31,476 nt of DNA from a virus. Below, in pieces: positions 5,502-26,022 of the stretch (the stretch's first letter is position 1; each line of letters starts with the position of its first letter). The notes beneath the pieces were generated by a model. The model was not told where the DNA came from and made no database searches. It was given only the letters and a program-made list of their open reading frames with translations. The translations under genes and the position numbers were made by a program. The DNA is taken from IMG/VR virus record IMGVR_UViG_3300045885_000636, positions 1 to 31,476 of that record; one strand, written 5' to 3'.

Positions 5502-5882
5502 CTACGCGAGCCGCGTGTAGACGTCCTCGCCGCCGGTCCGGCCGACGACGACCTCCCCGGTCGCGCGCGCGAAGACGGGGTCCGGCGCGGTCCCGCCGGA
5601 AGCGAGCGAGACGTTCACCCGGTCGGCTGACGCCTCGTACACCACGACCCAGGACGGCCCGGCGAAGTTGAGCGTCGGCACGGTCCCGACGTCGACCCCG
5701 TCGTGCTGCACGGTCAGCCGGCTCACCCCCGGCGGCGGCACGCCGACGAGGTGCGCGGCGTCGATCGCCGTCCCGCCGACCACGCCGATCCGCTGCAGCC
5801 GGGCCGCGATCTCCTCGAGGATCGCGTTGTAGATCGCCCGGCCGAAACCGGATGCGCCGCGCCCGTGCCCGTGCGGCCTCAC
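5502..5882 (-). CDS. Tail fibre/appendage protein
   Basis: A 126-residue protein with an N-terminal helix (GRAIYNAILEEIAARLQRIG), then VQHDGVDVGTVPTLNFAGPS followed by a strand and a VNVSL end. The pattern of a G-V-x-VG turn, LNF-G and a VNV-type strand is common in siphophage fibre or trimeric appendage proteins. The GTG at 5882 overlaps the stop of the large tail hub gene in a GTGA arrangement, so translation of the two is likely coupled. It probably attaches to the tail tip or forms the first fibre segment. Role inferred from motif and position. Confidence 0.78.
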   Translation of the reverse strand: MRPHGHGRGASGFGRAIYNAILEEIAARLQRIGVVGGTAIDAAHLVGVPPPGVSRLTVQHDGVDVGTVPTLNFAGPSWVVVYEASADRVNVSLASGGTAPDPVFARATGEVVVGRTGGEDVYTRLA

Positions 5883-8800
5883 GGGACGATCCGCACGAGG
5901 TAGCTGACCCAGGGCGTCCACGCGGCCGTGGCCTGCATCAGGAAGCAGAGCACGTTCCACCCACCGGGGATCAGCAGCGTCGGGTCCAGGTCGTGCGTGC
6001 CGGCCGCCGCGACGGGCAGCGCCTGGCCGTTGAGCCACGCACCCGCGAGCGTCTCCTGGCCGCCGCCGGGCAGCGTCAGGACGAGCTGGGCCTCCCGGTA
6101 CGGCCCGCCCGAGGAGGAGGCCGGCAGCAGCACCGGGTGGCGCCAGGTGGCCCGGTCGACCGCCGAGAGGCTCGCGCCCGTGTAGTAGCCCGGTTGGCCG
6201 GCGTAGCCGAAGGCGGCGTGCTCGACGCCGACGGGGGCGGACGGGTCGAGGAAATTGAAGCAGCGGTAGCGGCTCGCCGTCGGGAGCTCGCCGGCCGACG
6301 CCGGGCCGTTCCAGCCCGGGGTGAGCACGTCCTCGGGCGCGAGCAGCGTGAACGCGCACTCGCCGGTCGGGCGCCAGTACAGCGCGCCGTCGTTGCCGGT
6401 CGAGAGCGAGACGACCTCGTCGTGGTTGGCCAGCGTGAGCTTCCAGGCGGCCCGGTGGCCCGGCAGCCCCCCGGCGCACGCGCCGGCGCGGACCGCGATG
6501 CAGTTCTCCGTCGTCCCGTCGGCGACCAGCAGGTCCGGGTCGAGGTAGCGGAACATCGACGTGCCCGAACAGGGCAGCGCCGTGCCGTTGACGTAGGCCT
6601 CGATCGGCGCGTCGTGCTGGTTGGCGCCCCCGCCGACCGGGCGCAGGTTGTAGAGCTCGAGCGTCGCGCGCGCCCAGGAGGTGCCCGACGGCGCCGCCGG
6701 CAGGGTGAAGACGTGGCGGAAGAGGGCTTGTTCGTGGGTGTGGGTGTGGTTGGCGCCCTGCGGCCAGTGGTCGTGGGCGCGGAAATGGCGCTGGGACGAC
6801 CCGAAGGGGATGGCCGTCGTCGGCTCGGCCCACGGGTGCGACGACCCCGGCGCGGTCGACCAGGGCACGGAGTCGTCGAAGGCGGCGAGCTGCCAGCCCG
6901 TCGGCGGCGGATCCTGGATCAGCGGGGACGAGGGATTGGTGCAGATCGAGGCCACGATCGTCCCGTTGTCGGGGATGCCGTGCACCGACTCCTCGGGGAA
7001 GTCGGTGTTCGAGGCCCGCTCGACGAAGGCCAGGCGCACGGGCGGCACCATCGGGGCGGCGGCGTAGCCGATCTGGTATCCGTACAACGGGACGGTGGCG
7101 TAGTCCCGGAGCAGCACCCACGTCTCGGCCGCGTCGTAGGTCTTGACCACGCCGCCTTCCCCGGCGGCGTAGAACACCTTCGTCTGCTCGCCGTCGCGCA
7201 CGACGTGCCCGGCCGGCCCGATCCCGGTGTCGGCCGCGGCCCGGAAGGATGAGGCGCCGGGGTCTTTCACCCAGGCGTGGCCGTCCTCGTCGAGCGCGAG
7301 CAGGGCGTCCTCGGCCGCGAAGGCGGTGATGCGGACGTCGGCCGGCACCGCGCCCGGGAAGCCGACCGCGGAGGAGTCTTCGTGGACGACCGGGCTTGCG
7401 GCCTCGCCGCTGGCGTAGTTGCCGAAGAACGACAAGGCGACGCGCTTCGCTTCGCCGCCGGCGAGCGTGGTGAGCACGCCGTAGGTGCCGAAGCCGTCGT
7501 AGGTGACGTAGACGTTCTCGCCGGCGCACGCGCGGACCTGGCCGTCGGCGGCGTAGCTCTCGACCACCCAGTTGACCCGGCTGGGGAAGTCCACCGCCTC
7601 GAGCCAGACGGCCTCGGCGAGCAGGTCAGCCTGGACGGTGTACCAGACCTCGCCGTTGGCCAGGCCGACCCAGACCCGCACCGCGTTGGCTTCGTTGACC
7701 CAGATGCACTCGACGGAGCTGGGGAAGGTGTGCACCAGCGTCGGCTCCGACACGAGCGCGTCGTCGCTGCGGTAGAGCTTGCCGTCGCTGAGGCCGAAAT
7801 ACGTGTGGGTCAAAGGCGCCACTTCCGGCGTCGAGCGCACGGTCACGGCCGCGCCCGGCTCCCACGTCTGCCACGTCATCCCGCCGTCGCCGGTCGCGTC
7901 GGCCTGCGCCCCGGCGGCGACGTAGAGCGTCCGGGTGCCGACCGCGGTGACGTCCCCGCTGATCGTCTCGGTGTGGCTGTTCGTGTGCGGCCCGGTGGGA
8001 TCCGTGTCGCCGTCGGTCACCGTCAGCGTCACCGTCGGGGAGGCGTTCCACTCGGCCTCCGTGAAGCCGACCGACCAGGTCGCGCCCGTGCCGGTCGCCC
8101 CGGTGGAGGCGGACCAGGCGTAGGAGACGATCGCCCCGTCGGGGTCGAAGGAGGGCGAGCCGTCCAGGGCGACGGAGTAGACGCGGGTCGGCACGCCGCC
8201 GACGAGGTAGGCCTCCGAGGTGACGGTGAACGTGAACGCCGCGACCGGGTCCAGGCCGATCAGGTAGCCGGTGTCCCCGGCCCCGCCGACCAGCTCCACC
8301 CGCGAGAACGCGCCGGAGGCGCCGTACTCGTGGCCGACCTGCATGATCCAGTAGTTGCGCTCGGTGCTCAGCCCGATCTTCTCGGCGGTCAATCCGATCG
8401 TGTGGCCGGGCATCAAGTACGGGTTGAGCGGGACGCGCAGCTCGAGCTCCTCGCGCCGCCGGTTCTGTTCGGACATGTACCGCTGCGCCAGGAGATCGCA
8501 GTGATCGCGGTTCTCGATGATGTCGCTGGAGAACGTGAACACGCTGTCCCGGAAGTAGCCGTCGGGATCCTGCGGCACGTACGGCGAATCGGCACGCCGG
8601 TCGGCGTAGACGCGCGTGCCATCCGCCTCCTGCAGTCCCTCGACGATGACGCGGTTGTTGAGGTCGGCGACCGTGTCCCGGCGCCGCACCTCGAGGAGGC
8701 GCAGCACCGGGTAGACGGCCGCGCCCTGGGCGTAGCGGAAGCTGGCGTTGGCGGCCGGGATCGGCGCGACCCGGGTCCGCATCACGATGCCCTGCACCTC

Positions 8801-9364
8801 GAAGGTCTTGAAGCCGCCCGGGCTGCTCGCGTCGAGCTTGTCGACCAGCTCCCGCGGCGTCCCCTGCTGGGCGACCTCGACCGGCCGGCGACCCCCGTAG
8901 GTGATCCCCTCGTCGACCGCCGGCCCGGTCTGGTAGCGCGGGATCAGCGACTTGCGCATCAACTCGGTCCAGATGAAGCCGTCGGTGACGGAGCTGTACG
9001 CGAAGCCCTCCTCCTCGTAGGTCGGGTCGAGCCTTCTCAGGTAACCCTGCGCCTCCACCTGCACCCGGTGCGGGAAGTACGACAGGTCGACCGTGACGAC
9101 CTCGCCGCCGAAGACGGGCTGGAAGCCGCCGCCGAGGCCGGCGAAGCCGAGCGCGATCGTCACCGGATTGCCCGGCGCCCAGGTCGGCAGCGTCGGACCG
9201 ACGACGGTGAACGTCGCCCGGCTCGACTGCGTGCCGAAGCCCAGGTCGACCTGCACGCCGGTGACGCGCAGCGCGGTCTGCCCGCCGATCAGCACGCGCG
9301 CGATCGGGGTCTGGTAGGGGCTGCCGACCCACATGCCCATGTCGGTCGGGACGAAGAGCGTCAC
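5879..9364 (-). CDS. Large tail hub protein with PKD, beta-propeller-like and adhesin modules
   Basis: A 1161-residue protein directly downstream of the small tail gene, in the position of Tal/tip genes. Residues about 1-370 look like a gp27/gp44-type baseplate hub (small beta domains, FGGEVVTVDLSYFPH, DTVADLNNRVIVEG, PLNPYLMPGHTIGL). Residues about 371-470 look like a PKD domain (GSPSFDPDGAIVSYAWS). From about 475 to 800 are blades resembling a sialidase/sortilin-type propeller (SDGKLYRSDD, a YVTYDGFG segment, GHAWVKDPG). The C-terminal part holds two similar beta-sandwich modules, each with an NG-x-ALP motif and LDP-x-LL. The GTG at 9364 overlaps the upstream stop in GTGA. It probably anchors the tail tip and recognises surface glycans. 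Hub and PKD calls are fairly firm; propeller and adhesin calls are pattern-based. Confidence 0.85.
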   Translation of the reverse strand: MTLFVPTDMGMWVGSPYQTPIARVLIGGQTALRVTGVQVDLGFGTQSSRATFTVVGPTLPTWAPGNPVTIALGFAGLGGGFQPVFGGEVVTVDLSYFPHRVQVEAQGYLRRLDPTYEEEGFAYSSVTDGFIWTELMRKSLIPRYQTGPAVDEGITYGGRRPVEVAQQGTPRELVDKLDASSPGGFKTFEVQGIVMRTRVAPIPAANASFRYAQGAAVYPVLRLLEVRRRDTVADLNNRVIVEGLQEADGTRVYADRRADSPYVPQDPDGYFRDSVFTFSSDIIENRDHCDLLAQRYMSEQNRRREELELRVPLNPYLMPGHTIGLTAEKIGLSTERNYWIMQVGHEYGASGAFSRVELVGGAGDTGYLIGLDPVAAFTFTVTSEAYLVGGVPTRVYSVALDGSPSFDPDGAIVSYAWSASTGATGTGATWSVGFTEAEWNASPTVTLTVTDGDTDPTGPHTNSHTETISGDVTAVGTRTLYVAAGAQADATGDGGMTWQTWEPGAAVTVRSTPEVAPLTHTYFGLSDGKLYRSDDALVSEPTLVHTFPSSVECIWVNEANAVRVWVGLANGEVWYTVQADLLAEAVWLEAVDFPSRVNWVVESYAADGQVRACAGENVYVTYDGFGTYGVLTTLAGGEAKRVALSFFGNYASGEAASPVVHEDSSAVGFPGAVPADVRITAFAAEDALLALDEDGHAWVKDPGASSFRAAADTGIGPAGHVVRDGEQTKVFYAAGEGGVVKTYDAAETWVLLRDYATVPLYGYQIGYAAAPMVPPVRLAFVERASNTDFPEESVHGIPDNGTIVASICTNPSSPLIQDPPPTGWQLAAFDDSVPWSTAPGSSHPWAEPTTAIPFGSSQRHFRAHDHWPQGANHTHTHEQALFRHVFTLPAAPSGTSWARATLELYNLRPVGGGANQHDAPIEAYVNGTALPCSGTSMFRYLDPDLLVADGTTENCIAVRAGACAGGLPGHRAAWKLTLANHDEVVSLSTGNDGALYWRPTGECAFTLLAPEDVLTPGWNGPASAGELPTASRYRCFNFLDPSAPVGVEHAAFGYAGQPGYYTGASLSAVDRATWRHPVLLPASSSGGPYREAQLVLTLPGGGQETLAGAWLNGQALPVAAAGTHDLDPTLLIPGGWNVLCFLMQATAAWTPWVSYLVRIVP

Positions 9365-9720
9365 GACGAGGCGACCTGGATGAACGTCGCCTCGGCCTCC
9401 CAGTCGGCCATCCAGGCGAGGCGCCGGCCGCGCAGCTCGGCGAGCACCATCCCCGGCAGGTTCGTGCCCAGACCGTTCCAGTCGCCGAGCGTCTTGGGCA
9501 CGCCGTCGCCGAGGTACGACGACAGCGCGTCCCACTCCCAGTCGCTCTCGACGCTGATCTGCAAGCGCAGGCGCGGCGAGCCGGGCTTGCGGAACTGGAC
9601 GTGGTCGGCGCCGGCGTAGGGGACCGGGGTGATCGTCACGCCGCCGTCGCGCTCGAGCGCGGGGAGACGGCCGTCGCCCGCCAACAGAACCCCGAAGCTG
9701 GCCGTCCCGAACGTCGCCAT
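9361..9720 (-). CDS. Small tail protein (distal tail-like)
   Basis: A 119-residue protein lying between the tape measure and the tail hub, the place of distal-tail or tip-adaptor genes. It is short for a full Dit (usually about 200-300 residues). The sequence is a compact alpha/beta protein (LRLQISVESDWEWDALSSYL, then MVLAELRGRRLAWMADWEAE). The ATG at 9720 directly follows the tape measure stop, and its own stop overlaps the hub start (GTGA). Position strongly supports a tail-tip structural role, but I cannot name the family. Confidence 0.78.
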   Translation of the reverse strand: MATFGTASFGVLLAGDGRLPALERDGGVTITPVPYAGADHVQFRKPGSPRLRLQISVESDWEWDALSSYLGDGVPKTLGDWNGLGTNLPGMVLAELRGRRLAWMADWEAEATFIQVASS

Positions 9721-16924: not shown

Positions 16925-17524
16925 TCAGGGTAGCGGGGGCACGAACGGCCAGCGGTTGCGTTTGCGCGAATTGCACGACGTGCAGATGGGGCGCAGGTTG
17001 GCGAGCACGTGCGCGCCGCCCTTCGTCAGCGGCTTGACGTGGTCGATGGCCTGCGCCGGCCCACGGCAGACCCAGCAGCGGTTGCCCCAGTAGAGCACCT
17101 TGGCCCGCAGGTCGGCCTCGCCGACGGGCAGAACCGTCGCGCCGCGCTTGCGTGCGGTGTAGCGCCGGATGTACTCGCGGTTCTTGCCGGACTGCTTCAG
17201 CCAGCGCCGGTTGTAGGCCTTGACCCAGTCGAGGTTCTCCCGACGCCAGCCGAGGACCCGCGCGATCTCCCGGACGCGGTTGCGTCGGTAGTGCCCGCGG
17301 CTCGCCGCGCGTGAGCTGCCCGGGTGCTCGGCCCGCCAGGCGCGGTGGTACGCGCGCTGCGCCGGGCGGCCCTTCGCCGCCCACCAGGCCGTCGTCGCGG
17401 CCCGCGCGCACGCCTTGCAGTTCGACTGCAGGCCCGTGCGCGCCCGCCTGCAGGTGTGGAACGCCGCGGCCGGCAACTCCCGCCGGCACGCCGCGCAGCG
17501 TTTGGACGCGGGTACACTGTCCAC
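16925..17524 (-). CDS. HNH endonuclease (free-standing homing-type)
   Basis: A 199-residue basic protein. The N-terminus carries a CxxC pair (C10, C13) and a second CKAC pair (C36, C39) typical of zinc-binding HNH accessory regions. The HNH core is at 150-190: CWVC (C150, C153), AIDHVKPLTKGG (D161-H162), NLRPICTSCNSRK (N176, C181, C184, N185). It cuts DNA with a metal-dependent betabetaalpha-Me active site. The start is the GTG at 17524 with GGAGG 9 nt upstream. It sits between the capsid gene and the putative decoration gene, an unusual place for packaging HNH proteins, which normally lie next to terminase. A homing role is therefore likely. Confidence 0.88.
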   Translation of the reverse strand: MDSVPASKRCAACRRELPAAAFHTCRRARTGLQSNCKACARAATTAWWAAKGRPAQRAYHRAWRAEHPGSSRAASRGHYRRNRVREIARVLGWRRENLDWVKAYNRRWLKQSGKNREYIRRYTARKRGATVLPVGEADLRAKVLYWGNRCWVCRGPAQAIDHVKPLTKGGAHVLANLRPICTSCNSRKRNRWPFVPPLP

Positions 17525-17610: not shown

Positions 17611-17830
17611 CCCGATTCGCGGCTCATCACGCCCGTAGCCCGGCACGCATCCGACGCATTAACGACTAATCCCAACTGCTATGTCGGTCAGGCAGCCGTC
17701 AAATCCAACTTAACGAAAGCCGATGGACGAATGCATCCCATTGTCGCTCTCAATTCCGCAAGTATAGCGACTAAGTTCCTGATATAGAAGTCTGCGTGGC
17801 TATCGCTAACACTAACGTTGGCTTCTTCCC
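17600..17830. other. AT-rich tract covering the capsid gene 3' end and the downstream gap
   Basis: By direct count, 17701-17760 is 28/60 and 17761-17820 is 26/60 G+C, with a sharp change to GC-rich sequence at about 17830. The capsid C-terminus keeps its reading frame but uses GTT, AGT, TTA, ATA, AGA and CCA codons, unlike the rest of the gene. The tract continues into the gap before the HNH gene, pointing to homing-associated conversion or import of a foreign 3' end. Confidence 0.65.
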
Positions 17831-18977
17831 GGTCCCAGAGCACGATCCGGCGCCACTCGCCGACCCAGCCCGTGCCCTGGGTCTGGGCCTCGGTCTCGAC
17901 GACGGGCAGGCCCCAGAGGCGTGGGGTACCGATCACGCTCGGGCCGCCGAAGTAGTAGCGCGCTTCGTTGTCCTGCAGCAGGTCGATGGTTTCCCAGTCG
18001 AGCGGGTTCAGCACGTAGGCGGAGGGCACACTGCGGCCCGGGGTGAGGACCTTGGTGCGGCCCTTGCGGGTCGTGGTCAGGATGTTCGTGTCCCAGAGCT
18101 GCTCCTGCGTGCCGTCCACGTGGAGCAATCCGGTGAAGTTCTCGCCGGTGCCGTCGCCGTTGAGGATTTGCCAGTCGACGGCTTCGACCAGGTCGGCGCG
18201 CAGCTCGTCGTCGATGATGCCGCGCAGCTGCGCGGCGTCCGAGAGCGCCCGCTTGGTCGCCGCCACCCACTCCGCGATCGTGCGCACCAGCTCCTGCACC
18301 CGCTCGAAGGTGAAGCCGCCCTCGGGCTTGGTCCCGCTGGTGCCGGTCGTCGCGGTCGCCTCGGCGACCGGGGCCGCCGCGTTGGCGCGGCTGACCTGGC
18401 GCACGTACTCGACCGCGTCCGAGGTCGTCTGGCGCACCGAGACGATCGAGCGGAGCGTGACCGGCCGGCGGCCGAGTGGGTCGAAGATGCCCGATTGGTC
18501 GGGCACGACGAAGGCGCCCCCGGAGGTCGGAGCGAGGCCGGTGATGAGCGTCTTGAGGGTGAGGTAGTCGGCGGCGCGCAGCGGCGGCGACTGGACGTGC
18601 TGGCCGTCGGGGAAGCGCCCGCCCGGCGCGGCGGCCTTGACGTAGGCCTGCCACGTCTCCGACTCGACGAAGTGCGCGCCGAGCGACTTGGCCGTCGCCG
18701 GGCCGAGCGCGCTCTTGCCGTTCTTCCCGTTGGCGCCGGGCATCGGCAGGTGGCCGGTCGGGCGGCGCAGGTCGTCGAGGCGGCGGTCGTTGGCGATCCG
18801 CCACTCGGCGTCCTGCTTGAGGTCGAGCGCCTTCTTCTCGAGCTCCTCGAGCTCCTGGTTGAGCTTGACGACGCTGTCGCGGTCGGCGTCCTTCCCCTCG
18901 GCGTCGGCGTCGTCCCAGAGCGTCTTGACCTGGCGCGCCTTCTCCTCGATCTGGGTCAGCAGCTCGGCTAGCTTCAC
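17688..18977 (-). CDS. Major capsid protein (HK97 fold)
   Basis: A 429-residue protein. The first about 100 residues form a charged coiled-coil delta domain (MKLAELLTQIEEKARQVKTLW, LNQELEELEKKALDLK), a scaffold removed by the protease. The mature part has the usual HK97-type order: TGLAPTSGGAFVVPDQSG, TSDAVEYVRQ, then KRALSDAAQLRGIIDDELRADLVEAVDWQILNGDG, and a C-terminal domain with YFGGPSVIGTPRLWGLPVVET. The GTG at 18977 has GAGGAGG 9 nt upstream. It follows the prohead protease. The last about 45 codons are unusually AT-rich; residues there still fit a capsid C-terminus. Confidence 0.95.
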   Translation of the reverse strand: MKLAELLTQIEEKARQVKTLWDDADAEGKDADRDSVVKLNQELEELEKKALDLKQDAEWRIANDRRLDDLRRPTGHLPMPGANGKNGKSALGPATAKSLGAHFVESETWQAYVKAAAPGGRFPDGQHVQSPPLRAADYLTLKTLITGLAPTSGGAFVVPDQSGIFDPLGRRPVTLRSIVSVRQTTSDAVEYVRQVSRANAAAPVAEATATTGTSGTKPEGGFTFERVQELVRTIAEWVAATKRALSDAAQLRGIIDDELRADLVEAVDWQILNGDGTGENFTGLLHVDGTQEQLWDTNILTTTRKGRTKVLTPGRSVPSAYVLNPLDWETIDLLQDNEARYYFGGPSVIGTPRLWGLPVVETEAQTQGTGWVGEWRRIVLWDREEANVSVSDSHADFYIRNLVAILAELRATMGCIRPSAFVKLDLTAA

Positions 18978-18991
18978 GGGGGTGTCCCTCC

Positions 18992-20026
18992 TCAGATCCG
19001 GTTCCGTGCGGCGGAGCCGCACGTCAGGCGCACGCGCGCCAGCAGGCGCTCGGTGTCGAAGCGCAGCCGCGCGGCGGCGCTCTTCGGGGGCGGCTCGGTG
19101 GCCTCGAGCCAGGCGTGCAGGTCGGTGCGCGCGCCGTCGAGGCCGTCGAGGACCTCGAGCAGGGCGCGGATGCGGGCGCGGCTCGCCGCCGAGAGCTGCC
19201 GGCCTTCCTTCAGGTCGAGACCGGCGCCGACGAGCTCGTGCTCGAGGTCGTGCAGCAGCTTGCCGGCCTCGCCGACCCCCTCGACCGCGGCGTGCCGCTC
19301 GAGGTGCCGACGCGCCCGCCCGGCCGCCTCGGCCGGTAGGTCGGCCTGCGGTAGCCGGGCGAGGGCGTTGCGCAGGTGCGGGAGGTCGACCGCGCCCGAC
19401 GGCCCGTGGTGGGGCAGCTTGCGCAGGCTGCGCGGGACCGTCTTGCCATCCTCGTCCTTCTCGCCGCCCGAGAGGACCACGGCGAATGCGGAATCGGGGA
19501 GGTTGTTGACGGCCGCGGCGCTCCACTCGGCCTTGACGTCGGTGAGCCCGGCCTTCGGGTTCATCGGCAGCGGGACGAGGCTGCCCTCGAGGACGTCGAT
19601 GCGGGTGAGCACCCGGACCTGGTCGTCGCCGCGGGGGCCGCGCGCATCGTCGATCTTGCGGTAGGTCCACTCCTGCGGGTCGTAGCCGATCGACATGCCC
19701 ATCGGCTTGCCCGCGGCGAGGCGCTCGGCGGCCGTCGTGCGGGCCTCCTGCGCGAAGGGGGTCGAGTGGAAGGGGCCGGCGATGTACAGCCCGACCGCGT
19801 CCTCGCGCGCCTCGTCGATCATCCCGATCGGCAGCGCCTTGTAGTCGTGCGCCCAGGCCAGGAAGCCGCGCGCGACCAGGTTCGGCAGCGAGGCGACCGT
19901 GGCGCCCGGCTCGATCAGGTCGCCGCCGTGGTCGACGTTGCCGAAGACGGCGACGTGGCCGCCGAAGCGGCCGGCGCCCTCCCCGTCGACGGAGAAGCCG
20001 GTGACCGGGAAGGTCTTGTGCTCCAC
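18992..20026 (-). CDS. Prohead serine protease (HK97 gp4-like, family U35)
   Basis: A 344-residue protein. The catalytic His lies in FLAWAHDYKALPIG (H60) and Ser in MGMSIGYDP (S112), the U35 pattern. The N-terminal half is the protease; the C-terminal about 170 residues (from SAFAVVLSGGEKDEDG) are charged and helical, as in fused scaffold-like tails of actinophage proteases. It removes the capsid delta domain. I chose the GTG at 20026 (EHKTFPVTGF follows, the usual start of homologs); an in-frame GTG at 20053 would add nine residues. It sits between the DUF5131 gene and the capsid gene. Confidence 0.9.
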   Translation of the reverse strand: MEHKTFPVTGFSVDGEGAGRFGGHVAVFGNVDHGGDLIEPGATVASLPNLVARGFLAWAHDYKALPIGMIDEAREDAVGLYIAGPFHSTPFAQEARTTAAERLAAGKPMGMSIGYDPQEWTYRKIDDARGPRGDDQVRVLTRIDVLEGSLVPLPMNPKAGLTDVKAEWSAAAVNNLPDSAFAVVLSGGEKDEDGKTVPRSLRKLPHHGPSGAVDLPHLRNALARLPQADLPAEAAGRARRHLERHAAVEGVGEAGKLLHDLEHELVGAGLDLKEGRQLSAASRARIRALLEVLDGLDGARTDLHAWLEATEPPPKSAAARLRFDTERLLARVRLTCGSAARNRI

Positions 20027-20099
20027 GCAGGCGCACCCGGCGCCTGAGCCCACAAACGGCGCGGGGCGCGATGCCTGGGCGAACGTGCCCGCTGGACGG

Positions 20100-21344
20100 C
20101 TAGACGGTTAGACGGGCACCAGCATGCACGGTCGCCTGTTCGGTGTCAAGCGGTCGTCGGGGAGTCGGGTACCGGCGCCGGTAGCGTAGGTTGGTCTTGA
20201 GGTAGACGGGGCACCCGGCCGCATCGGCCTGCTTGATGAGGTGGTCGATCCATTCGTCCGGCGGCTTGAACGCCGGCGTCTGCGAGCTCGCGGTCGCGGC
20301 GCCGATCACGATCCAATCGAAGCCTTCGAGGCTCGAGAACGTCAGGCGCTCGAGCATCGGCTCGCAGGATAGCCACCGGACGCCGGCTCTGACACGGGCG
20401 AAGACGCGTTCCGCGGTCGCGACCCGGGCCTGGCGGTCCACGCTCGTCCCGACCCAGGCGTTTTCTGGCCAGTCTTGTTGCGCCATCCGTTGCGGGAATT
20501 TGGTGAGGTAGAGGAAGTTCCACTGCGGGCACTCGCGGGCGACGGCGAGCTCGGCGTCGATCCACTCCTGCGGCACCCACTTGCCGAAGAGGTCGGCCAT
20601 CGAGTCGCAGAAGATGTTGTTGGCGCCGGGGCCGCCCGGTCGCGGCTTCACGTTCCGCGGGCTGTGCAGCCGGTCGGGGTGGAAAGCCGGCTCGAAGCCG
20701 TAGCCGGCGAACCACCGCTCGGCGATGTCGCGGGCGTAGCAGTACGGACAATCGTGCTCGCAGCCCGTGACGACGTTCCGTGACCAGAGCGCCCACTCGA
20801 TCGCCGCGTTCGATTCCCGCTCGCGGTGGTCGGTCATGCCCGCCCGGCTGGCGCGCGGCGCCTCGGCGATCAGCCGCTCTTGCTCCCCCCGCGTCATCGC
20901 GTGCCATGCCGTGAGCGTCACGACGGCGCCGGGTTGCCGTCCGGGCCGGCGCATCTGTGAGACGACACGCGCGACGTGGGTGGCCGTGACGCGGCCATTG
21001 GGCGCCGTGTCGACCGCGCGCGCCCAGGCAGCCGGTTGCTCGGCCACGGGCAGGCGGGCGAGTGGCCGCGCCTGACTCTCGGTCGCAGGCGGCGTGTCGA
21101 CAATTGTCGACACGCGGTCGACGACGCCGGCCGCGTCTATGAGCTGGTACGCCCGCGTCCGGTCGAAGTCCCAGCGTTGCCGGCAATACTCCTCGAACGT
21201 GGCGTGCGTCCCGCGGTAGAGGCGGCCGTCGCGGATGGCCACCAGCGCGCGGCCGACTTCGACGAAGGTCGACAGACCGCGCCCGATCGTCGCCTCATGA
21301 CGGGCGAGCTCGTGCGCGGCGGCGAGCGGGCCCGCGTCCGTCAC
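20100..21344 (-). CDS. DUF5131 (Gp37/Gp68) family protein fused to an N-terminal helical domain
   Basis: A 414-residue protein in two parts. Residues about 1-165 are helical (HATFEEYCRQRWDFDRTRAYQLIDAA, ESQARPLARL), a domain often fused to phage DNA-handling proteins and resembling ParB-like segments. Residues 170-400 are a DUF5131-like core: CEHDCPYCYA (C195, C199, C202, the CxxxCxxC signature of radical SAM), NNIFCDSMADLFGKWV, NFLYLTKFPQRM, NAWVGTSVD and RWLSCEPML. The family has no established reaction; a radical chemistry on nucleic acid or protein is plausible. The GTG at 21344 overlaps the tcmP stop (GTGA), so the two are co-translated. In databases DUF5131 genes often neighbour TcmP genes. 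Its base composition is somewhat lower in GC than the head genes. Confidence 0.88.
   Translation of the reverse strand: MTDAGPLAAAHELARHEATIGRGLSTFVEVGRALVAIRDGRLYRGTHATFEEYCRQRWDFDRTRAYQLIDAAGVVDRVSTIVDTPPATESQARPLARLPVAEQPAAWARAVDTAPNGRVTATHVARVVSQMRRPGRQPGAVVTLTAWHAMTRGEQERLIAEAPRASRAGMTDHRERESNAAIEWALWSRNVVTGCEHDCPYCYARDIAERWFAGYGFEPAFHPDRLHSPRNVKPRPGGPGANNIFCDSMADLFGKWVPQEWIDAELAVARECPQWNFLYLTKFPQRMAQQDWPENAWVGTSVDRQARVATAERVFARVRAGVRWLSCEPMLERLTFSSLEGFDWIVIGAATASSQTPAFKPPDEWIDHLIKQADAAGCPVYLKTNLRYRRRYPTPRRPLDTEQATVHAGARLTV
21092..21115. repeat. 24-bp perfect palindrome inside the DUF5131 gene
   Basis: The left half-site GCGTGTCGACAA is followed directly by its exact reverse complement. 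It lies in the N-terminal domain coding region (encoding RVSTIVDT) and is AT-richer at its centre than its surroundings. The two GTCGAC half-sites with a central AATT recall dimeric-protein operator design. It could bind the ParB-like part of this same protein. Confidence 0.7.
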
Positions 21345-22129
21345 CAGGCCTCCCCGAACGGCAGCCGGGGCTGGTAACGCGCCTTGCGCTCCTCTTCGGT
21401 CAGGTCGAGCAGCTCGGCGATCGCCTGACCCTCCGGCGACCCCAACGGGCGGAACCCTTGCCGGCGGAAGTGCCCCGTCAGGAAGTCCGTGTTGCTCAAC
21501 AGCACGAGCGTCCACTGGCCGTGCCCGGCCGGGCGGCGCAGAACGATGTGCTGCTTACCGATGCCCGATACGCGCTCGATCAGCCTCCCGTCGTCCCGGC
21601 CCTGCGCGGCGTGCCATTTGCGGTAGGCCGGCGCCAGCGACAGCAGGAGGTCGAGGCGTGGGCAGACCTGCGCGATCCGCCCGAGCAGGTCCCAGGGCTG
21701 CTCGACGCCGTTGAGGTCGAGGTAGACCAATCCGACCGACCAACGGGCCCGCGCGCCGAGCGCGCGCTCGACGTCGGCCCAACGGCTGGTGTGATCGCCC
21801 GCGAGGACGGTCGCCTGGAGCCCCCGTTGATCCAGGTGGGTGCGCAACTCGGCGACGGCCGCGTGGTTCTGCTCGATCAGGTACGCGTCGACGGTGATGC
21901 CCAGCCGGCGGGCCGTCTCGAGCATGATCAGCGGGCTGCCGTCGGCGCCGTTGACGACACCGCAACCGGCGGTCAAATCGACGCACACCGGATTGCGGTG
22001 CCACCGGGGGTGGCGGTCGAGGACCTTGCGGCTGATGCTGAGGTCCGCGGCGAAAATCTTGCCGACGCAGTCCTGCTTGAACTGCGTGTCTTTGCTGTAC
22101 CCGACGCCGTACTCGTTCACCGGGCTCAC
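21341..22129 (-). CDS. tcmP: TcmP-like protein (three-Cys-motif partner; methyltransferase-like)
   Basis: A 262-residue protein directly upstream of the DUF5131 gene. A Rossmann-like start is visible: VDLTAGCG (residues 50-57), a GSPLIML segment (64-70) as in TcmP (a GSPLI segment following the AGxG loop), and LIEQN (84-88) as motif II. A later strand, LVYLDLNGVEQPWDLL, fits the acidic motif. The family is known as the partner of DUF5131 proteins; its activity is not established. The GTG at 22129 is chosen because GGAG lies 8 nt upstream and it overlaps a short leader ORF (GTGA). An upstream GTG at 22156 would add nine residues. Likely a SAM-binding protein acting with the radical SAM-like partner. 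Confidence 0.82.
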   Translation of the reverse strand: MSPVNEYGVGYSKDTQFKQDCVGKIFAADLSISRKVLDRHPRWHRNPVCVDLTAGCGVVNGADGSPLIMLETARRLGITVDAYLIEQNHAAVAELRTHLDQRGLQATVLAGDHTSRWADVERALGARARWSVGLVYLDLNGVEQPWDLLGRIAQVCPRLDLLLSLAPAYRKWHAAQGRDDGRLIERVSGIGKQHIVLRRPAGHGQWTLVLLSNTDFLTGHFRRQGFRPLGSPEGQAIAELLDLTEEERKARYQPRLPFGEAW

Positions 22130-22179
22130 GGCCCGGGCTCCGAGAGCGGCGTCCACCGGCGCGTAGACTCCCGTGGCAT
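22126..22179 (-). CDS. Short leader ORF coupled to tcmP
   Basis: A 17-residue ORF (MPRESTRRWTPLSEPGP). It starts at the ATG at 22179, with GAGGAGG 10 nt upstream, the strongest ribosome site of this cassette, and its TGA overlaps the tcmP GTG (GTGA). Such an ORF would recruit ribosomes and control TcmP translation. The peptide has no recognised domain. It is too short to be certain; evidence is the ribosome site and the overlap. Confidence 0.45.
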   Translation of the reverse strand: MPRESTRRWTPLSEPGP

Positions 22180-22204
22180 CGCGAGGCGACCTCCTCGTGG
22201 TGCA

Positions 22205-22235
22205 GCCCCGCGGCCGCGCTGAACGGCCGCGGGGC
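22205..22235. terminator. Strong 12-bp hairpin before the tcmP leader
   Basis: Arms GCCCCGCGGCCG and CGGCCGCGGGGC, 7-nt loop. On the plus strand it is followed by GCCTTTGTGT (a weak T-run), so it could end rightward transcription. On the minus strand it lies 8 nt upstream of the leader GAGGAGG and could shape ribosome access there. Its role is undecided. Confidence 0.5.
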
Positions 22236-22282
22236 GCCTTTGTGTGCGGCGCAGGCTACCATAACCGCCGTGGTGGCGTGCG

Positions 22283-22465
22283 CTAGCTCACCTGCTGGCG
22301 CGGCACCGGTGTCACGACCGGCCCCCGCTTGCGCTCCTCCCGGCTCTTGTAGGTGACCTCCGCACCGCAGCCGGCGCAGACCACCCGGGCGTAATCCGCC
22401 ACCTCGGCGAGCCACCGCCCGCAAGCGGGGCACTTGAGCTGCTGGGGCGTCACGGCGGTGCCCAT
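22283..22465 (-). CDS. Com-like zinc-ribbon protein
   Basis: A 60-residue protein with two CxxC knuckles (C12, C15 and C30, C33) spaced 14 residues apart, QLKCPACGRW...YARVVCAGCGAEVTY, then a basic tail. This resembles Mu Com (a small RNA-binding translational activator of mom) and related zinc-ribbon proteins. It sits between the portal gene and tcmP and would start that cassette. In Mu, Com regulates expression of a DNA-modification gene; here the partner may be TcmP. The ATG at 22465 has no strong ribosome site; a GTG at 22452 is an alternative. Function by analogy only. Confidence 0.7.
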   Translation of the reverse strand: MGTAVTPQQLKCPACGRWLAEVADYARVVCAGCGAEVTYKSREERKRGPVVTPVPRQQVS

Positions 22466-22580: not shown

Positions 22581-24650
22581 TCACGCGGCCACGCCGCGGG
22601 AGACTTCGCCGGGATCGACGACCGGCGAGAACGCCCGGACGCAGTTCGGGTGGGCCAGATGCGGGATATCCGCCATCTGGTCGAGCGGGATGATCAGCCC
22701 GTCGGCTTTGGTCGGGTCGTCGTGGGACCGCAACCCGCAGCCGTCGCCGTCGAGGATGCGCACGCCGTGGACCACGCCGGAGGCCGTGTAACTCGCCAGG
22801 GCGGACGCCTGGCTGGCGATCGCGAGCTCGGTCCGCGCGATCGTGCGCGCCCGGCCGTCCGAGAAGACGCCGAGCGCGCGTACCCGCCGGGCGAGCGCCT
22901 CGACGCCCTCGCCCGCGGCCTGGCCCGCCTGCAGCGCGGCGGCGACCTCGGCGCGGGTGTGCTCGAGGATGCCGACGACGTTGGCGCCGGCCAGCTCGAG
23001 GAAGGCGCGCGTCTGCGGGTCGTCGAGCTCGAAAGACACGCCGAGGTAGTCCTCGGCCAGCGGCACGACCGCGGCGCCCATCCGCTTGTACCAGCGCGCC
23101 AGCAGCGCGTTCAGCTTCGCCTGCTCGCGCTCGAAGTCGGGCCTCTCATCGGCCTTCGGCGCCGAGATCGCCGCGGCGGTCCGGTCGCCGAGACCGCGCA
23201 GGTACGCCGAGAGAGCGCGCGCGCAGGGCGCCTGCAGCCGCACGCGCACGCGCAGCAGGCTGTCGGCGAAGTCGGCCGCCTTCGCCGCGGACGGGCGGCG
23301 CGCCACCTTCGGCGGCGGCAGCACCCGCAGCTCCGGGGGCGCCTCGAGCGCGGGCTTCTCCTCCTCCGCCTCGGGCACGAGCGCGTCGGGGGCGGTCGGG
23401 ATGTTCGTCGCCCGGACGTAGAGCACCTCGCCCTGGCCGTCGGGCAACGGCGGCAGCCCGACGCGCTCGCGCGCCTCGTCGACCATCACCCAGCCGCCCT
23501 GCACGCCCACGTCGAGCCGCTTCCAGAGCGCATCGACGTCGGGCTGCAGGATGCGCACCTGACTCAGGTCGAAGTCGACGAGCAGGCGGCCCGGGTCGCC
23601 GAAGTCCCCGAGGAGCTGGGTCTGCAGCTCGGCCGCGAACAGCCGCTGGGTCGGGATCAGGTTCGATTCGTACGCGGCGCGCCGTGACTCCTCGTAGTTT
23701 GAAAAAGTGCTACGCGAAAGTCCCGCCCCGAGGCCGACGACCATCGCCGGGATCCCGAGCGCGGCCGTGATGCGCTCCTCGGGGAGCTCGCGCAGCCGCC
23801 CGAGGTCCATCTGGTCGGGCGAGAACGAGAGGGTCGAGACCTTCATCGGCACGCCCAGGACGAGCGGCTCGCCGCGCCGGGCGCCGCCGAACTTGGCCAT
23901 GAAGTCGGCCTTGACGACCTCGACCTCCTGCGCGGTCAACGGCGGGCCGACCTGGCCGGCGGTCGGGTCCGGAGCGAGCACGACACCGGGCACCCCGACG
24001 TTGCGCAGCAGCGCGCTCGAGAAGAGCGCCGCCTCCTCGTCGGTCAGGACCTCGCGCAGCACGGAGCGGAGCGGGGAGAGGCCCTTGCGCACGTTCTCGG
24101 GGTCGAGCCCGTACCGGAAGTGCACGACGTCGGCGGGCGCGAGCTCGATCGTCTGGCCGCCGACGGTGTAGTCGTAGTGGGTGATGAACGTCTTGCCGTC
24201 GTCGTCCCAGCGCGGCTCGACGGTGCCGGTGGGGAGCCACCAGAGCTGCGTCGGGCGGCCGGCGTCGCCGCGGATCTTGCCCCAGTAGGCGTTGCCGTCG
24301 TAGACCCAGTCCGCGATCGTGGCCTGCCACAGCAGCAGGCCGGCGTAGTGGGGGTTCGGCGTCGCCACGAGCGTCGTCATCGGGAAGTCGGGCAGCGGGA
24401 CGAGGTCGCCGCCCTTCTTCTGCTGGACCCGCAGCGGCGCCTCGGGGAACGTCCTGGCCATCCATGCGACGCAGGCGAAGCACACCGAGTTGGTGCGCGC
24501 GTCGCCGCGCGCGGCGGTCGTCGTCCAGGGCGCGCCCGCCCACGTCGAGCCGGTCCAGGACCAGGCACGGGCGCCGCCCCAGCGCATGCGCAAGGCGGCC
24601 GCCTTAACGGCGTCGGCGACGAACCGTGCGGCGCGGGTGATCGGGTTCAC
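22581..24650 (-). CDS. Portal protein fused to a MuF-like head morphogenesis domain
   Basis: A 689-residue protein. Residues about 1-420 are the portal: NSVCFACVAWMARTFPEAPL, the DWVYDGNAYWGK region, LSPLRSVLREV, and the conserved LSRSTFSNYEESRR (311-324). A Pro/Ala-rich linker (about 440-470) leads to a C-terminal MuF-like domain (about 490-689) with RTIARTELAIASQASALASY and the final HPNC-VR (H667, C670, R672). Most HK97-type phages keep MuF as a separate gene; the fusion is notable. The portal forms the DNA gate; MuF is minor and internal. The GTG at 24650 has GAGGAGG upstream. Confidence 0.93.
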   Translation of the reverse strand: MNPITRAARFVADAVKAAALRMRWGGARAWSWTGSTWAGAPWTTTAARGDARTNSVCFACVAWMARTFPEAPLRVQQKKGGDLVPLPDFPMTTLVATPNPHYAGLLLWQATIADWVYDGNAYWGKIRGDAGRPTQLWWLPTGTVEPRWDDDGKTFITHYDYTVGGQTIELAPADVVHFRYGLDPENVRKGLSPLRSVLREVLTDEEAALFSSALLRNVGVPGVVLAPDPTAGQVGPPLTAQEVEVVKADFMAKFGGARRGEPLVLGVPMKVSTLSFSPDQMDLGRLRELPEERITAALGIPAMVVGLGAGLSRSTFSNYEESRRAAYESNLIPTQRLFAAELQTQLLGDFGDPGRLLVDFDLSQVRILQPDVDALWKRLDVGVQGGWVMVDEARERVGLPPLPDGQGEVLYVRATNIPTAPDALVPEAEEEKPALEAPPELRVLPPPKVARRPSAAKAADFADSLLRVRVRLQAPCARALSAYLRGLGDRTAAAISAPKADERPDFEREQAKLNALLARWYKRMGAAVVPLAEDYLGVSFELDDPQTRAFLELAGANVVGILEHTRAEVAAALQAGQAAGEGVEALARRVRALGVFSDGRARTIARTELAIASQASALASYTASGVVHGVRILDGDGCGLRSHDDPTKADGLIIPLDQMADIPHLAHPNCVRAFSPVVDPGEVSRGVAA

Positions 24651-24660
24651 GGTCTCCTCC

Positions 24661-26022
24661 TCAGGCGCTGACCCAGCGGTCCGCGGCGGCGAGCGCGTTG
24701 AAGGCGCTCGATGAAGCGTCCATCGCGTCGTCGTGGGGCCAGTCGGGCTGGTTGTGCAGCTGCGTCAGGTAGCGGTCGTTCCAGGGCGCGCGCCGCAGGA
24801 ACACGTTGCCGGCCTCGGCCTGGGCCGCGAAGGGGAGCGCGCGCTGGATCTTGTCGCCCGAGGGCGACTGCGCCCGGGCGTCGTAGCCGGCCAGGCTCGT
24901 CACGAGGTCGTGGGCGACCAGCAGCCCGCTCGCGCCGGGCTCCTGCTCGAGGCGGACCGCGCAGCCGCGCCCGTCCTGCGCCGCGGTGTTCAGGATCAGC
25001 CGCTTGACGGCGGCCGGCCCCTCCTGCGCCTCGACGACGTCCTCGACGTAGTACCGCCCGTCGCAGCGGCGCATGCGCACGCCGGTCGTCCAGTCGGGGT
25101 CGTCCCCGGCCAGCTTCCTGGCCGTCGCGGCCAGGTCCCAGGCGCGCACGACCGCGCCGCCGGCCGGGACGGCGTCGACGACCCCGAACCAGCCGCGGCT
25201 GAAGACCTTGCCCGCGGCCGGCCGGATCTTCCAGTTGCCGCCCCGCTCGCGGTCGCCCAGGAGACGCTCGCGGTCGACGAGCGGCAGCGCCATCAGGTTG
25301 GCCAGGTAGCCCGGGTCGCGCTGCATCAGGATCGGGTTGTCCCAGAGCGTCGAGAGGACGAAGGTGACCGACTTGGGCGGCACCGCGGGGAAGCGGGCGC
25401 GCAGCTCCTCCGGCGTGTCGGCCCAGACGACCTCGTCGTCGACCCGGACCATGTAGCGCAGGACGCCGCTGCGCTCGGGCAGCGCGTAGCCGTCCTCGCC
25501 GATCCACCATGCGACGAAGCGCGCGACCCATGAGTCGGCGTCGGCGTTGCAGGTCGCGCGCACGTAGGGGCGCACGCCCGAGAGGGACCGGTTGCGCGAG
25601 AGCAGGTAGAAGAACTGCGACTCGGAGAAGTGGGTCAGCTCGTCCCACTCCAGCAGCGCGACCTCGGCGCCCTGCCAGCTGAGCTTGTCGGTTTCGTGCT
25701 GCAGGTGGGCGAACTGGACGCCGGCGCCGCTCGGGAACGTCCAGTCGAGCCGGATGCTCGAGGGGGTGGCGCCCAGGCACGGGTACAGCTCGACCGACTT
25801 GTCCCAGAGGCCGCCCTCGTTGCGGATCTGCGGGTACGTGCGCCGGAAGACCACAGCGCCGAAGCGCGGGTTGTGGACGTGCCGCAGCGGCTCGAGCAGC
25901 AGGCTCCAGGTCTTCCCGCCGCCGGCCGCACCGCCGAAGATGGCGATGTCGGCCGGCGACGAAAGGAACACCGACTGCGCCCCGGGCTGGGGCGCGAGCC
26001 TATGCGGGGGCGCGGTCGCCAC
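24661..26022 (-). CDS. terL: Terminase large subunit
   Basis: A 453-residue protein. Walker A is GAAGGGKT (31-38) and Walker B is VALLEWDE (121-128, D127/E128). The C-terminal RNase H-like nuclease shows acidic residues in AWDLA (D296), EQEPG (E361) and HDDAMDA (D431/D435). It is the ATP-driven packaging motor and cuts concatemers. The GTG at 26022 starts 23 nt inside the terS 3' end, so translation is coupled. It stands directly before the portal gene. All key residues are present. Confidence 0.96.
   Translation of the reverse strand: MATAPPHRLAPQPGAQSVFLSSPADIAIFGGAAGGGKTWSLLLEPLRHVHNPRFGAVVFRRTYPQIRNEGGLWDKSVELYPCLGATPSSIRLDWTFPSGAGVQFAHLQHETDKLSWQGAEVALLEWDELTHFSESQFFYLLSRNRSLSGVRPYVRATCNADADSWVARFVAWWIGEDGYALPERSGVLRYMVRVDDEVVWADTPEELRARFPAVPPKSVTFVLSTLWDNPILMQRDPGYLANLMALPLVDRERLLGDRERGGNWKIRPAAGKVFSRGWFGVVDAVPAGGAVVRAWDLAATARKLAGDDPDWTTGVRMRRCDGRYYVEDVVEAQEGPAAVKRLILNTAAQDGRGCAVRLEQEPGASGLLVAHDLVTSLAGYDARAQSPSGDKIQRALPFAAQAEAGNVFLRRAPWNDRYLTQLHNQPDWPHDDAMDASSSAFNALAAADRWVSA

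Follow-up and report, generated by a model that had tools for sequence, protein, structure and literature searches.

A TcmP–DUF5131 gene pair, probably inserted into a phage head operon, with a possible role in DNA modification

Introduction

A phage contig from IMG/VR (IMGVR_UViG_3300045885_000636; 31,476 bases, genes mostly on the minus strand), the whole of which is referred to here as the window, carries four genes between those for the portal protein and the prohead protease. They encode a zinc ribbon protein, a 17-codon leader, a TcmP-like protein and a DUF5131 protein (Table 1). This arrangement raises the question of which of the four belong together, how they came to lie in the head operon and what they do. 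A preliminary description of the locus had treated them as one cassette, in which a Com-like zinc ribbon might exert RNA-level control over a modification activity. Its coordinates and gene calls were right, and the tight coupling that it described can be read directly: a GTGA overlap joins the stop of the leader to the GTG start of TcmP, and another joins the stop of TcmP to the start of DUF5131. It was also right that a TcmP–DUF5131 cassette sits as an insert in the head operon. Our analysis corrects its reading of the zinc ribbon, which appears to be a head-operon gene rather than a regulator of the pair in the manner of Com. The locus is a new member of the known TcmP–DUF5131 pairing and comes with a functional lead. 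The best overall explanation, to which we give an even chance, is a moron insertion that carries a joint DNA-modifying pair.

The zinc ribbon gene

A scan with the window's zinc ribbon found a relative 87% identical over 37 amino acids (aa) in L126/L207. L126, L127 and L207 represent one sister phage, whose terminase is 84%, portal 56% and protease 49-60% identical to those of the window. In L126 the portal, zinc ribbon and protease genes follow in succession, and neither TcmP nor DUF5131 was found in the 38-kb L126/L207 record. A portal scan added two more lineages, L208 and L228, with the same gene order. In these two, whose records may, like that of L207, be fragments, DUF5131 was absent from the records and TcmP was absent from the stretches read around the locus. 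In L207, L208 and L228 the zinc ribbon thus has the space between portal and protease to itself, which contradicts its inclusion in the cassette.

The window's zinc ribbon was not seen at any further TcmP/DUF5131 locus that was fetched. When 900 nucleotides (nt) upstream of 62 TcmP/DUF5131 loci were surveyed, a handful held any open reading frame (ORF) with a CxxC...CxxC pattern; these were of unrelated types and none was like that of the window. This survey ruled out the zinc ribbon as a recurrent third member of the cassette, and no other genome in the collections searched joins it to TcmP and DUF5131 in the trio that had been proposed. In the phages StopSmel and Mwe-Yong1, the portal adjoins the protease without either zinc ribbon or pair.

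The Pfam Com model PF10122 (Zn_ribbon_Com) gave no match to the zinc ribbon even at E<=10. The protein matched many zinc-ribbon models weakly, a Com-type PHROG among several (E ~1e-4 to 1e-3). Its match to PHROG 6417, a translational regulator, was marginal (E 4.6e-4), and other zinc-ribbon families scored equally well or better. Membership of the Com family was rejected on these grounds. Because the portal-zinc ribbon-protease order occurs without DUF5131 in three lineages, PF10122 is unmatched and no other pair locus has the gene, the zinc ribbon is assigned to the phage backbone. By these comparisons it is probably an older resident of the head operon and not part of the mobile pair.

The insertion site

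The promoter-like site TTGACA-N17-CATGCT has one exact match in L126/L127/L207, at the homologous place between zinc ribbon and protease, and TTGAC(G/A) with -10-like boxes occupies that place in L208 and L228. Since the window's copy now lies within the last DUF5131 codons, the pair appears to have entered the operon between the zinc ribbon gene and the promoter of the protease. The site is predicted to be the old protease promoter; it would mark the 3' boundary of the insertion, with DUF5131 ending inside it. GC content at third codon positions (GC3) is 0.875 in DUF5131, the lowest of the genes measured (phage mean 0.953, standard deviation 0.023, minimum 0.907), and falls to 0.6 in its final codons. 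Residues 397-414 are predicted to be disordered in the AlphaFold2 (AF2) model. Low GC3, the drop at the 3' end and the disordered tail all agree with an insertion that ends inside the old promoter. At the upstream edge, the gap between zinc ribbon and TcmP aligned with L126 no better than shuffled sequences did.

L123 is a relative of the window phage (portal 38%, DUF5131 46% and TcmP 35% identical). In L123 the head genes are preceded by TcmP, an HNH gene and DUF5131, and the portal-protease gap contains other genes. This different placement in a relative indicates that the cassette is mobile relative to the phage backbone. The two-gene TcmP-DUF5131 unit with its short translated leader is very probably a moron-type insertion in the head operon of a temperate phage, marked as such by an integrase and RecT, and leader plus pair would form the mobile unit.

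The preliminary description had taken portal and protease to be neighbors in HK97-type phages, which is partly true here: the gap was below 300 bp in 32 of 62 loci of the phage group and at least 450 bp, with varied ORFs, in 25. Portal homologues are followed by the protease in L019, L020 and L207. Because extra sequence or ORFs are present in many phages, the gap behaves as a site for accessory genes. It holds 0.5-3.4 kb of varied sequence and ORFs in L123 (9734-13021), L214, L216, L221, L223, L243, L249 and L259; the gap in L123 includes an ORF assigned by eye as glycosyltransferase-like.

Of the two borders that had been described for the cassette, the hairpin was upheld and the inverted repeat was not. 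The same 2.7 kb of GC-rich DNA contains 186 inverted pairs, among which the described repeat does not rise above chance, and none of the longest pairs cleanly brackets the cassette.

The TcmP–DUF5131 pair in other genomes

Partners of DUF5131 were surveyed in 68 non-redundant loci with enough upstream sequence. TcmP was found close by on the same strand in 49, which bears out the earlier view of a recurrent pair; because the survey was seeded with DUF5131, the count describes what accompanies this subgroup of DUF5131. Outside it, TcmP was lacking from most bacterial and archaeal loci. Single-sequence TcmP searches of viral contigs, phages and plasmids gave no matches, and aligned TcmP sequences diverged too far to serve as a basis for scans.

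A small HNH-like protein with the pattern C-x2-C...HH...N...C-x2-CH and matches to HNH families was present in 21 of the 49 pair loci. Judged from these loci, this protein, not the zinc ribbon, appears to be the usual third partner. It is absent from the window locus. Its gene lies at 4961-5176 in L001, 5519-5734 in L006, 5300-5515 in L008, 5408-5620 in L009, 5096-5305 in L010 and 1232-1444 in L123, among others; in some loci an HNH-like gene follows DUF5131 instead.

The known pairing of TcmP (TIGR04474) with the three-Cys-motif protein (DUF5131, Gp37/Gp68; PF07505) resembles the window in having the same two families, adjacent and in the same order, in phage and with the CxxxCxxC motif. The window differs from it in its divergent TcmP, in the ParB/Noc/DUF3102-like N-terminal domain of its DUF5131 and in its position inside the head operon. 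In the literature searched there was no paper on DUF5131, TcmP appeared only in gene lists, and no work dealt with the reaction of either. The pair is a recurrent phage element, listed as a defence candidate, with no reaction known in that literature.

Predicted proteins

The window TcmP scored 40.8 bits against TIGR04474, under the curated cut-off of 53; its relatives scored 40.9-52.2 bits. The AF2 model (predicted local distance difference test, pLDDT, 90) has a class I methyltransferase fold, a Rossmann-type S-adenosylmethionine (SAM)-binding fold with motif I. Foldseek comparison with the PDB gave 307 matches at E<=0.001, with methyltransferases at the top; the nearest structures, all of low identity, included Trm11, PrmA and RlmJ. 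Sequence matches in the PDB gave nothing meaningful. Across 47 sequences K19, L96 and D139 are invariant, and the DxxAGxG and D(P)NG motifs are conserved.

DUF5131 matched PF07505 with 127.4 bits (cut-off 28.9) over its C-terminal half only. It scored 16 bits against the radical SAM model PF04055, below the cut-off of 29.5 (E 0.014), and matched the rSAM_PA0069 family at E 0.001. The three motif cysteines are conserved in 59-60 rows of the alignment. In Foldseek comparisons the core of the AF2 model (pLDDT 87) matched a radical SAM methyltransferase, spore photoproduct lyase, which acts on DNA, and RlmN, mostly with probabilities of 0.9-1.0. More weakly than for TcmP, the model suggests a radical-SAM-like core, a partial TIM barrel with CxxxCxxC. 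Family matches and predicted folds make both proteins look SAM-dependent, as had been proposed. The structural check that went with that proposal supports a methyltransferase fold for TcmP and, with modest E-values, a radical-SAM resemblance for DUF5131; it covered the two proteins singly.

The N-terminal domain of the window DUF5131 had neither a Pfam match nor a tblastn match in phages, and only fold comparison helped. Foldseek matched it to the DNA-binding domain of ParB (Spo0J)/Noc (probability 0.93-0.99, E 0.1-0.24), and it resembles viral DUF3102 proteins in BFVD. These model comparisons are supportive of a DNA-binding-type domain without being proof of it. Across loci the N-terminal types of DUF5131 comprise about 39 ParB-like domains, eight fused domains of the window type, three of a third type (L006/L008/L085) and helix-turn-helix (HTH) types. 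ParB-like domains match ParB and a DNA methyltransferase PHROG; that of L001 matches the N-terminal part of the DNA methyltransferase family phrog_498 (E 2e-8). Four phages have the window-type domain standing alone, without DUF5131 (L011 6001-6378, L015 3157-3444, L016 6001-6330, L017 6001-6474). Taken across the loci, DUF5131 appears to be fused to interchangeable DNA-binding-type domains. By eye, the standalone domain lies beside a ParB-like ORF in L016 and near a Dam-like ORF in L015.

Function of the pair

The interchangeable N-terminal domains, the phrog_498 match, the Noc/ParB resemblance and the likeness of the core to spore photoproduct lyase argue that the substrate is DNA. The exchange of DNA-binding-type domains between loci, together with the recurrent HNH partner, points the same way. 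DNA modification is, tentatively, our leading proposal for the function of the pair, at a little under an even chance. The N-terminal ParB/Noc-like domain would bring the radical-SAM-like core of DUF5131 to DNA, and TcmP would add a second step, either SAM-dependent or substrate-presenting. The base modified in this way would shield phage or prophage. Gene content and order, the recurrent pairing, the fusion and exchange of domains and the site of insertion are shown by the sequences; an Fe-S cluster, SAM binding, physical partnership, the DNA substrate and the purpose are what we infer. For the purpose, protection of phage DNA is our first choice and phage-borne defence our second. Where phages hypermodify cytosine, the modifying enzyme comes together with ParBc proteins, for which fusion to DNA methyltransferases is common (PMC12783734). 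The CmoX/CmoY system described there resembles the window in joining a SAM-dependent enzyme to a ParB-type DNA-binding domain, but it uses a C5-cytosine methyltransferase homologue, CmoA and a ligase, where the window has a radical-SAM-like core and TcmP. More speculatively, the pair, often with the small HNH protein, could be an uncharacterised radical-SAM system for DNA modification, or modification and restriction, that phages carry as a mobile cassette and whose swapped ParB, Noc or HTH domains set the target; we lean against this wider version.

Several observations weigh against modification of DNA by the pair. No biochemical data were found for any family member, and in PADLOC the relatives figure as a defence candidate rather than a modification system. 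The window TcmP has DLNG where most have DPNG, and its DUF5131 differs from the rest of the family by W189R, P191V and C247D. For the DUF5131 core, Foldseek gave weak E-values (2e-3 to 6e-2, best 1.8e-3), with the RNA enzyme RlmN on about the same level as spore photoproduct lyase. For the N-terminal domain, whose DNA-binding nature is judged from fold similarity, Raf1 has a better E-value than ParB/Noc.

The strongest competitor, which we consider unlikely, is that the pair is a phage-borne anti-phage defence acting in superinfection exclusion, a form of PADLOC PDC-M30/PDC-M41; in relatives the HNH-like protein would then be the nuclease effector. The window DUF5131 matches the B components (PDC-M41B 2e-32, PDC-M30B 1.4e-30), and the A components are TcmP relatives: TcmP of a Gordonia phage (L024) matches PDC-M30A at 8e-47 and PDC-M41A at 3.6e-15. 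The 21 loci with an HNH-like partner would suit such a role, as would the temperate lifestyle marked by the integrase and RecT genes in the window. PDC-M30 was present in 32 of 100 P. aeruginosa strains (PMC10855318), and in S. meliloti the TcmP gene SMa2243 is listed near the Hna defence gene SMa2245 (PMC12445080). However, PDCs are candidates named through guilt by embedding, and the majority lack validation (PMC10855318; PMC12988326 on PDCs generally). The window TcmP hardly matches the A models (PDC-M41A, E 0.026), and the window has no HNH protein and so no obvious effector. Its phage location and the N-terminal DNA-binding-type fusion also set it apart from PDC-M30/PDC-M41.

Two further alternatives are improbable, and to the same degree. 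A DNA repair enzyme like spore photoproduct lyase, packaged with a methyltransferase-like helper, would fit the high rank of that lyase in the structural comparison of the DUF5131 core and the rSAM_PA0069 match, but a partnership with TcmP that recurs across loci, often together with an HNH protein, is a poor fit to simple repair, and no UV-related context was seen. Modification of host tRNA or rRNA would account for RlmN and the rRNA/tRNA methyltransferases (Trm11, TYW2, RlmJ) among the structural matches; against it, nearly every DUF5131 protein linked to TcmP has an N-terminal domain of a DNA-binding type. Least probable by far is the analogy with Mu Com/mom, by which the zinc ribbon would bind mRNA and switch on TcmP translation as Com does for mom: a small CxxC...CxxC protein upstream of a modification-type gene, the strong hairpin and leader ORF just ahead of TcmP and the marginal PHROG 6417 match recall that system, but the zinc ribbon occurs without the pair in three lineages and with it at no other locus fetched, it does not belong with Com by its Pfam model, and the genes behind it have their matches in TcmP and DUF5131 instead of mom. 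As a system, the Com/mom analogy for TcmP is rejected.

Other features of the locus

Table 1. Features of the head operon and the inserted pair, with positions in the window
Feature	Position	Strand	Evidence or remark
Terminase	24661-26022	-	Ahead of portal in reading order
Portal protein (head operon, outside insert)	22581-24650	-	PF04860, E 4.5e-55
Zinc ribbon, 60 aa (probable backbone gene of phage lineage)	22283-22465	-	Two CxxC pairs
GC hairpin, 12-bp stem, between zinc ribbon and leader ORF	22205-22235	-	-27.8 kcal/mol, z -3.9
Leader ORF, 17 codons, MPRESTRRWTPLSEPGP and stop	22126-22179	-	GAGGAGG Shine-Dalgarno in front
TcmP-like protein, class I methyltransferase fold	21341-22129	-	TIGR04474, E 2.5e-10
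DUF5131 protein, whole gene	20100-21344	-	PF07505, E 8e-37
DUF5131 N-terminal domain, ParB/Noc/DUF3102-like, putative DNA-binding type (approximate limits)	20895-21344	-	Helical region, AF2 model
DUF5131 core, radical-SAM-like, CxxxCxxC (C195, C199, C202)	20100-20894	-	PF07505, E 8e-37
TTGACA-N17-CATGCT promoter-like site, inside DUF5131 3' end	20121-20149	-	Single exact match in window
Prohead protease (head operon, outside insert)	18992-20026	-	PF04586, E 3.7e-11; start ~20026

An alternative TcmP start lies at 22156, and the 471-aa DUF5131 ORF in the mechanical list of ORFs begins too far upstream. The hairpin ahead of the leader has no T-run on the gene strand and has a T-rich tail on the opposite strand; an Rfam search found no match near the locus.

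Directly ahead of the protease start, the zinc-ribbon phages carry a promoter-like site, TTGAC(A/G)-N17, together with a long hairpin whose apical part is CCAGGATCGGGCCTCAGG, or CCAGATTTCGGGCCTCAGG in L228. This protease leader spans 20026-20149 (-) in the window, 7738-7872 in L207, 4021-4150 in L208 and 8182-8303 in L228. A T-rich stretch follows the hairpin in L207 and L228; the window has kept the promoter-like site and the hairpin, the latter with a changed loop. The hairpin had no Rfam match. It is possible that the site is a regulated leader or a small RNA. As the zinc-ribbon phages, few in number and of common descent, have this leader in common, the zinc ribbon could act on it.

The capsid genes come after the prohead protease on the minus strand. 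Directly after the capsid gene lies an Endonuclease VII/HNH-like gene (16925-17524, minus strand; PF01844 3.9e-9, phrog_1035 3.5e-22), and a related HNH gene sits ahead of the portal in L005/L124. Very long antisense ORFs run opposite coding genes on the plus strand at 7277-9619, 5852-7252 and 17796-18971; they are expected from the high GC content, rather than being genes.

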